Assembly (NCBI GenBank): GCA_947304335.1
Contig: CAMZAW010000005.1
Span: forward strand, 1 to 32,499
Source: an uncultured Candidatus Saccharibacteria bacterium
Lineage (GTDB): Bacteria > Patescibacteriota > Saccharimonadia > Saccharimonadales > Saccharimonadaceae
Direction: 5' to 3'
Length of the DNA stretch: 32,499 nt
Shown here: positions 27,488 to 29,078 of the stretch, piece by piece
Layout: every line of letters begins with the position of its first letter
Position numbering within the stretch: position 1 is the stretch's first letter
Notes under the pieces: generated by a model
What the model was told of the DNA's origin: nothing
The model's input: only the letters and a program-made list of their open reading frames with translations
Database searches by the model: none
Program-made: the position numbers and the translations under genes

Positions 27488-27491
27488 AATA

Positions 27492-27520
27492 TTCACACCG
27501 TGATATATTTGTGGTATAAT
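27492..27520 (+). promoter_or_regulatory. Promoter for the HTH-MurA gene, predicted leaderless
   Basis: TTCACA - 17 bp - TATAAT, 7 nt before the ATG. Confidence 0.65.
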
Positions 27521-27527
27521 ATTTTGT

Positions 27528-29078
27528 ATGAAAAAACCAAAGACCTACCAACAAGTAATTGGTGAAACCATCGAACAAATGCGCCTTGAAAAAGGCTGGA
27601 CGCAGGGCGAACTTGCCGCTGCCGTTGGTTCATCACAGTCTGCAATTCACCGCATCGAAAAAGGCGGCCAAAATATTTCGCTTGAAATGATTAAAAAGCT
27701 TTCCGAAGCTCTTGGCAACCAAATTCTCTCTATTAACGACTCCGTTTCGCAGAGTTTTCGTATTCGCGGCGGTAAAGAACTCGCCGGCGAAATTACTGTT
27801 AACACTTCCAAAAATGCAGCCGTTGCTTTGCTTTGTGCGGCGCTTCTAAACTCCGGCAAAACCATTTTGCACCGCGTTGCTCGCATCGAAGAGGTCTTTC
27901 GTATTATTGAAGTTTTGGAATCGATTGGCGTAAAATGCCACTGGCAAAATCGTCATCGCGACCTTGAAATTATATCACCCCGCGAATTGAAATTGGACCA
28001 AATGAACATTGAAGCCGCGCGTAAAACCCGCTCCATCATTATGTTCCTTGGTCCGCTGCTTCATTTTTACAAAAAATTCGAAATTCCGTATGCTGGTGGC
28101 TGCTCACTTGGCACCCGCACAGTCGAGCCGCACCTTAAGGCTTTGGAAAGTTTCGGTCTCCAGGTTGATGCTACCAAAAATAGTGGTTTTTACAGTGTAG
28201 AAGTCGACCAAAAAATCCTGAGAAAAAATATTGATCGCCGCATCATCCTTACCGAACGTGGCGACACCGTAACTGAAAACATTTTGATGGCCGCCGCGCT
28301 TTGTCCGGGCAAAACCACCATCGTGGGCGCCTCACCAAACTACATGGTGCAAGATGTTTGCTTCTTCCTCGAAAAACTCGGTGTTAAAATCAGCGGTATC
28401 GGCACCACGACCTTAGTTGTGCGTGGTCGCCAAAGATTTAATACTGACGTCGAATATTACATTTCCGAAGACCCAATCGAAGCCATGTCGTTTATTGCCG
28501 CTGCGTTTGCTACACATTCCGAAATTACATTGCTTCGCGCGCCAATCGAATTTCTCGAAGTCGAGCTTGAAGTGTTGAAAAACATGAATGCAAAATTCGA
28601 AATCAGCGAAGAGTATTTGTCCAACAACGGCCGCACGCGTCTCGTCGATTTGACCGTTAAAAAATCCGACCTCGTGGCACCAATCGATAAAATTCACCCA
28701 ATGCCATTCCCGGGCCTTAATATCGACAACCTGCCATTCTTCTCGGTGATTGCCGCCGTGGCGGAAGGCCGCACTTTGATTCACGACTGGGTATTTGAAA
28801 ACCGCGCCATTTATACAGCTGAACTTGCGAACTTAAATGCAAAAGTCGAGTTGCTTGACGCTCACCGCATTTATGTGGAGGGTCCAACCAACTGGCACGC
28901 CGCCGAGCTCGTGGCTCCACAAGCTTTGCGTCCGGCTGTCGTGATTTTGATCGCGATGCTTGCCGCACCTGGCACTTCAATTCTCCGCAACGTCTACCCG
29001 ATTAACCGCGGCTACCAAGATTTCGCCGCCAGATTAAGACATTTAGGTGCAGATATTTCACCACTCACTGGTATTTAA
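27528..29078 (+). CDS. murA: XRE-type HTH domain fused to UDP-GlcNAc 1-carboxyvinyltransferase (MurA)-like domain
   Basis: ORF 516 aa; HTH IEQMRLEKGWTQGELAAAVGSSQSAIHRIEKG; MurA-like FRIRGGKELAGEITVNTSKNAA, YAGGCSLGTRTVEPHL, FPGLNIDNLPFF, INRGYQDFAARLRHLGA. Confidence 0.85.
   Translation: MKKPKTYQQVIGETIEQMRLEKGWTQGELAAAVGSSQSAIHRIEKGGQNISLEMIKKLSEALGNQILSINDSVSQSFRIRGGKELAGEITVNTSKNAAVALLCAALLNSGKTILHRVARIEEVFRIIEVLESIGVKCHWQNRHRDLEIISPRELKLDQMNIEAARKTRSIIMFLGPLLHFYKKFEIPYAGGCSLGTRTVEPHLKALESFGLQVDATKNSGFYSVEVDQKILRKNIDRRIILTERGDTVTENILMAAALCPGKTTIVGASPNYMVQDVCFFLEKLGVKISGIGTTTLVVRGRQRFNTDVEYYISEDPIEAMSFIAAAFATHSEITLLRAPIEFLEVELEVLKNMNAKFEISEEYLSNNGRTRLVDLTVKKSDLVAPIDKIHPMPFPGLNIDNLPFFSVIAAVAEGRTLIHDWVFENRAIYTAELANLNAKVELLDAHRIYVEGPTNWHAAELVAPQALRPAVVILIAMLAAPGTSILRNVYPINRGYQDFAARLRHLGADISPLTGI

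Follow-up and report, generated by a model that had tools for sequence, protein, structure and literature searches.

The window analyzed here is a 32,499-nucleotide stretch of DNA (contig CAMZAW010000005.1 of assembly GCA_947304335.1) from an uncultured Candidatus Saccharibacteria bacterium, and it carries a gene, HTH-murA, whose product joins an N-terminal helix-turn-helix (HTH) domain of DNA-binding type to the cell-wall enzyme MurA. We consider it likely that this protein is both an enzyme and the autorepressor of its own gene, with DNA binding, repression, catalysis and ligand control inferred from comparisons across genomes. Saccharibacteria are tiny, parasitic, host-dependent epibionts, and MurA performs the committed, fosfomycin-targeted step of cell-wall synthesis. 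New here are a MurA that is predicted to double as a DNA-binding autoregulator, fixed across an order of epibiotic bacteria, and an 18-bp promoter palindrome (the putative operator) tied to HTH-murA. We found no paper linking an HTH domain to MurA, and the main text of a Saccharibacterial transposon-sequencing (Tn-seq) paper does not mention murA. The modes of MurA control of which we are aware are proteolysis, allostery and phosphorylation-linked control.

The gene is a single unbroken open reading frame (ORF) at 27528-29078 on the + strand (as are all features given below), with an ATG start and a product of 516 amino acids. A preliminary description of this DNA had proposed one uninterrupted ORF joining an XRE/HTH_3-like domain to a full-length MurA-like domain, and each part of that proposal holds. 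The XRE-type HTH domain (residues 7-62, 27546..27713) is matched by Pfam HTH_3 at residues 15-63 (E 3.6e-15, 56.2 bits, cut-off 23), and an AlphaFold2 model built on 71 close relatives (mean predicted local distance difference test score, pLDDT, of 88) places four helices at residues 7-21, 26-33, 37-44 and 52-62 with pLDDT ~90; together with the conserved contact-type residues, this describes a Cro/C1-type HTH with an intact recognition helix. The linker that follows (residues 64-75, 27717..27752) is probably flexible, given pLDDT <50 at residues 68-73. The MurA domain, of EPSP-synthase fold (residues 76-512, 27753..29063), is matched by Pfam EPSP_synthase at residues 80-502 (E 1.1e-47) and by NCBIfam NF006873 (MurA; 327.6 bits, above the cut-off of 297), and scores below the cut-off of TIGR01072 murA (304.8 against 392.7), both cut-offs being a library convention and not a biochemical definition. 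The MurA fold is also predicted in the model, with low confidence in the catalytic loop (residues 191-197), and MurA structures are its best PDB matches (template modeling score ~0.9 by target length), such that the MurA family is the closest by both sequence and fold. Catalytic and DNA-binding-type domains thus share one chain. A frameshift or chimera joining two genes can be ruled out, because the same fusion recurs in 45/45 relatives in the order and third codon positions are ~6x more variable than second positions in the HTH, and likewise in the MurA domain. By this measure, the HTH is under the same purifying selection as the MurA domain, and its retention at ~50% protein identity across the order indicates that the fusion is not a product of chance.

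Going by gene content, essentially all Saccharimonadales examined have the fusion as their sole MurA. Outside the window genus, all 45 of the Saccharibacterial MurA sequences that were read carry it, and so does the window genus itself. The MurA ORF is ~505-580 amino acids long within the order, and typically 417-460 amino acids, with no HTH match, in other orders of the class. A profile search with the fusion recovered further full-length fusions in seven other families of the phylum (f61, f76, f115, f159, f167, f178 and f95), along with members of the same divergent MurA clade that lack the HTH head (“headless” members). A search of complete plasmid-type records added Streptomyces sp. BHT-5-2 and Nonomuraea gerenzanensis, which both have full-length fusions with the two domains, each 61% identical to the window protein; an order-wide fusion shared with Actinobacteria goes beyond what the preliminary description had claimed. 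Viral carriage of the fusion was considered and rejected, as none of the viral contigs searched encodes a relative. Apparent losses of the HTH head recur among close relatives (L251/L257, L247/L280/L255/L256 and L248/L250/L262/L263), each without the operator.

The evidence for self-regulation comes from the promoters. Across the order, HTH-murA promoters carry an 18-bp palindrome, TATATCAN4TGATATA, which usually fills the spacer between the -35 and -10 elements and the -10 element itself. Its consensus, TATATCATATATGATATA, is that of 64 distinct sites scoring at least 12/14, which were themselves selected on that consensus, and both arms are equally conserved. Scoring the best site within 100 bp upstream of each gene by its matches to the 14 consensus bases, and comparing with shuffled sequences, we obtained a mean of 12.3/14 for 45 Saccharibacteria outside the window genus (shuffles 9.1), with 33 of these reaching at least 12/14, and a mean of 12.2/14 for 12 other Patescibacteria with an intact HTH (shuffles 9.2), nine of which reach at least 13/14; shuffled upstream sequences reach 12/14 in 0-3% of cases. 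In headless clade members, none of 20 reaches 11/14 (mean 8.65, shuffles 8.64), and the same is true of 47 ordinary murA genes (mean 8.47, shuffles 8.51). Two members, L252 and L261 (family f54), retain a domain as long as an HTH, but their recognition helix is degenerate and they too lack a good operator site. The palindrome ends 8-15 nucleotides upstream of the start codon in 34/37 cases, and its right arm holds the -10 element with 5/6 or 6/6 matches in 36/37. Both Actinobacterial genes have ATCTCATATSTGAGATA at the same position, in DNA of 71-73% GC; the full sites read ATCTCATATCTGAGATA and ATCTCATATGTGAGATA, and while neither, taken singly, is more than modestly improbable as an inverted repeat (p ~0.03), they are persuasive because sequence and position are shared.

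The recognition helix appears to change together with this site. The helix region of the window protein (residues 35-44, SSQSAIHRIE, 27630..27659) reads TSQSA[IV]NRIE elsewhere; recognition helices as a whole are nearly fixed as TSQSA[IV][NA]R[IM]E, with [ST]SQSAIHRIE in the window genus, and in Saccharibacteria, other Patescibacteria and Actinobacteria alike, Q37 and E44 never vary and S36, S38, A39 and R42 hardly ever do. Where Ser36 is replaced by Thr (L244, L248 and L250), the usual half-site TATATCA becomes TATAGCA in 3/3 loci, versus 0/127 loci with Ser (Fisher p 2.8e-6, uncorrected for phylogeny), and this substitution falls in at least two separate clades, with L244 apart from L248 and L250 in the tree. 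In the window genus, His41 accompanies a TATTCA/TATGCA arm; L197 has the changed arm with Asn, and this second pairing is only suggestive. The trigger enzyme that the preliminary description had tentatively put forward thereby gains strong comparative support, in the form of a putative operator at its own promoter that is lost with the HTH and changes with the recognition helix; a response of its DNA binding to UDP-GlcNAc, PEP or a later intermediate would be a further, speculative step.

At the window gene itself, the putative operator is a window-genus variant, TATTCACACCGTGATATA, at 27490..27507, in a position matching that of the order-wide palindrome; the only exact match to TATTCANNNNGTGATATA in the 608-kb genome is at 27490-27507, and 97 loci of the window genus give the consensus AAATATTCATnnnGTGATATAAT. 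The promoter (27492..27520), predicted from consensus match alone, comprises a -35 element TTCACA (27492-27497), a 17-bp spacer and a -10 element TATAAT (27515-27520) preceded by TG, with 11/12 consensus matches, and the variant operator overlaps its -35 element and spacer. Both lie within the 40-bp gap after pgk. As the ATG follows the predicted -10 element by 7 nucleotides, the mRNA is probably leaderless, starting at the ATG, and an internal start that skips the HTH is disfavored because transcription from this promoter would begin at the ATG at 27528.

The MurA domain retains all of the catalytic residues examined. The preliminary description had picked out GGCSLGTR, SKN and NIDN as counterparts of catalytic motifs, and these align with C115, K22 and D305 (E. 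coli numbering): K95-N96 (27810..27815) corresponds to K22-N23, C192 (28101..28103) to C115, the cysteine attacked by fosfomycin, and D400 (28725..28727) to D305. Equivalents of K22, N23, R91, C115, R120, D231, D305, R331, R371 and R397 are invariant among HTH-MurA sequences. A second, stand-alone murA was looked for, and HTH-murA proved to be the only EPSP-synthase-family gene in its own genome (74% complete); one such gene is likewise found in almost all members of the order, single-contig genomes included. MurB is present in 29/30 relatives, including this genome, which also encodes a MurE-like ligase. We therefore infer that the window protein serves the cell as its functional MurA (UDP-GlcNAc enolpyruvyl transferase). 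The non-enzymatic MurA-derived sensor also raised in the preliminary description would fit the diverged motifs, the missed TIGR01072 cut-off, the long stem branch in the MurA-domain tree and clade-specific changes such as D369P, but it is hardly credible for a sole family member, in genomes retaining MurB and MurE, in which all principal catalytic residues are invariant. Beyond the order, in other Patescibacteria, Asp often replaces the catalytic Cys115 of ordinary MurA (7/17 sampled, for example L117, L122 and L131), a substitution linked elsewhere to fosfomycin resistance. In one genome of the same order (G226), EPSP-synthase-family matches number four, the best of them to a 293-amino-acid fragment of ordinary type (contig C12:17135-17908); this could be a second MurA/AroA or contamination.

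Several points weigh against an enzyme that represses its own gene. About a quarter of the Saccharibacterial genes outside the window genus score below 12/14, and the window genus has an asymmetric operator variant that covaries imperfectly with the helix (L197 being an exception). When HTH presence and operator presence are compared in phylogenetically independent pairs, four are concordant and none discordant, which is too small a test for significance (p 0.125). Changes specific to the clade near the nucleotide/closure region (V163D, G164T, E188N, P189Y and D369P, the last being Q in the window) include four, V163D, G164T, E188N and D369P/Q, that leave some doubt about substrate and kinetics. 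Finally, part of the right arm (TGATATAAT) would be conserved by an extended -10 promoter anyway. Since TGATATAAT is itself an extended -10, the conserved sequence might be that promoter only, with the palindrome incidental. We regard this as very improbable: the left arm, TATATCA, is as well conserved as the right, headless and ordinary murA genes lack the palindrome, arm changes follow helix changes, and some sites lie 30-110 bp upstream.

If HTH-MurA represses its own gene, the two N-terminal XRE heads of what is presumably a homodimer, each tethered by a flexible linker, would bind the 18-bp palindrome and cover the spacer and/or the -10 element (in the window, the -35 element and spacer), blocking RNA polymerase and placing MurA output in a negative-feedback loop. 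An activator or dual regulator of the same promoter would be in keeping with XRE proteins that activate and with the -35 element, which is often weak (3-4/6 in about half), but is unlikely, as the palindrome nearly always occupies the -35/-10 spacer and extends over the -10, and a protein bound there would normally block polymerase. More speculatively, the most likely arrangement would be one in which the state of the active site, open or closed and with or without substrate, alters dimerization or the placement of the heads, so that repression would be matched to the supply of precursors in the way of BirA or PutA. Plain homeostatic autorepression, in which no metabolite is sensed and the MurA domain merely goes along passively or serves for dimerization, is a serious contender that falls just short of an even chance: the operator evidence requires DNA binding only, constitutive autorepression is common among XRE proteins, the enzyme evidently manages without the head in headless relatives, and no tested item shows ligand coupling. 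However, persistence of the fusion across the order, and after the apparent transfer to Actinobacteria (see below), would be easier to understand if the state of the enzyme matters.

Repression by HTH-MurA would have precedents among metabolic enzymes. PutA likewise couples a metabolic enzyme to a DNA-binding domain, and its targets are very few, but it differs in its ribbon-helix-helix head, its redox or membrane switch and its catabolic role. PutA-type trigger enzymes are named in PMC8249747. The group II biotin protein ligase BirA, in which the DNA-binding regulator forms the N-terminal part of the enzyme (PMC4016012), follows the same working principle, although it is unrelated in both domains (the enzyme differs and the HTH is winged), it controls biotin synthesis operons and not only its own gene, and its ligand control is established, whereas that of HTH-MurA is speculative. 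Ordinary MurA (E. coli, Firmicutes and other Patescibacteria) shares the fold and catalytic residues of HTH-MurA, but has neither HTH nor operator, and lies outside its divergent clade.

This clade emerges from a tree of the MurA domain alone, with the HTH columns removed. The phylogeny of MurA with and without the HTH that the preliminary description had called for places all HTH-MurA sequences and their headless relatives in one divergent clade (100/100) on a long stem. Within it, both Actinobacterial sequences nest among Saccharibacteria, next to the window's family (100/98), a placement that is retained when one long-branch row is removed (100/100). A Saccharibacterial clade (plus L242) excluding Actinobacteria is rejected by the approximately unbiased (AU) test (p 3.5e-5), with the caveats that this group was named after the tree was seen and that the Actinobacterial rows deviate in composition. 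Hosts of cultivated Saccharibacteria belong to Actinobacteria, and the tree suggests transfer of HTH-MurA from a Saccharibacterial lineage to Actinobacteria, that is, from parasite to host lineage; because there are only two Actinobacterial sequences, we treat this as a supported lead and not as settled. The longest branch in the tree is a very divergent EPSP-synthase-like sequence, annotated as hypothetical, on a Streptomyces althioticus plasmid (L289, 537-1820).

The Streptomyces sp. BHT-5-2 gene lies ~3.3 kb from acnA (aconitase). SCO5998 (MurA2), one of two MurA genes, adjoins acnA (SCO5999; PMC12161575), and this shared neighborhood suggests that the BHT-5-2 copy, and with it the Actinobacterial copies, are probably Streptomyces MurA2 (SCO5998 / sven5810 / vnz_28735). 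BldM-WhiI binds the MurA2 promoter in S. venezuelae (PMC4125116) and MurA2 has a SigB-type promoter in S. coelicolor (PMC8346170); the passages on MurA2 that were read mention neither an HTH head nor self-binding. Streptomyces MurA2 is a second, developmentally controlled MurA, whereas HTH-MurA is here the sole MurA. That the active site is a sensor set by nucleotide-sugar supply, and that Actinobacteria acquired HTH-MurA with its operator and put it under sporulation control as MurA2, is a tentative and, on balance, somewhat doubtful proposal. Were the active site such a sensor, the supply of nucleotide sugars would directly set the committed peptidoglycan step in these epibionts. A MurA that is also an autoregulator would give MurA2, already known as a target of BldM-WhiI, a second role that had not been suspected, and would suggest that genes have moved from an epibiont lineage into Actinobacteria. 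With a defined operator and two specificity changes, the question can be put to one purified protein and 18-bp DNA.

HTH-MurA appears to have few other targets, and the simplest reading of the sites found is a single-target autoregulator. In one search of 81 genomes of the window's family, exact palindromes average fewer than one per genome, and a control pattern occurs in two genomes. In the subset of matches that was fetched, promoter palindromes are mostly at HTH-murA, often divergent from a glyA-like gene (named by eye), and the remaining exact palindromes are mainly inside coding sequence for Tyr-Ile-x-x-Asp-Ile. Exact sites in murE, valS, topA and other genes encode this peptide and are read as coincidences of coding, and a wider regulon in the window's own genome was rejected, its one-mismatch sites falling within methyltransferase-like and murE-like genes. 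A few intergenic sites, at G256, G624, G625 and G627, are not accounted for in this way; L295-L298 (G256) and L302-L303 (G625) are exact palindromes outside long ORFs that do not adjoin HTH-murA.

The gene order in the window is pyk-pgk-HTH-murA-UvrD/PcrA-like helicase (neighbor names read by eye from sequence), and a metagenome-assembled genome (JAILQE010000007.1) encodes a 99% identical protein. In many genera of the window's family, the divergent neighbor is a serine hydroxymethyltransferase-like gene, the neighbor in the window being pgk; at L304, L319, L320, L322, L327 and L329, HTH-murA is divergent from such a gene and the operator region is shared between the two.
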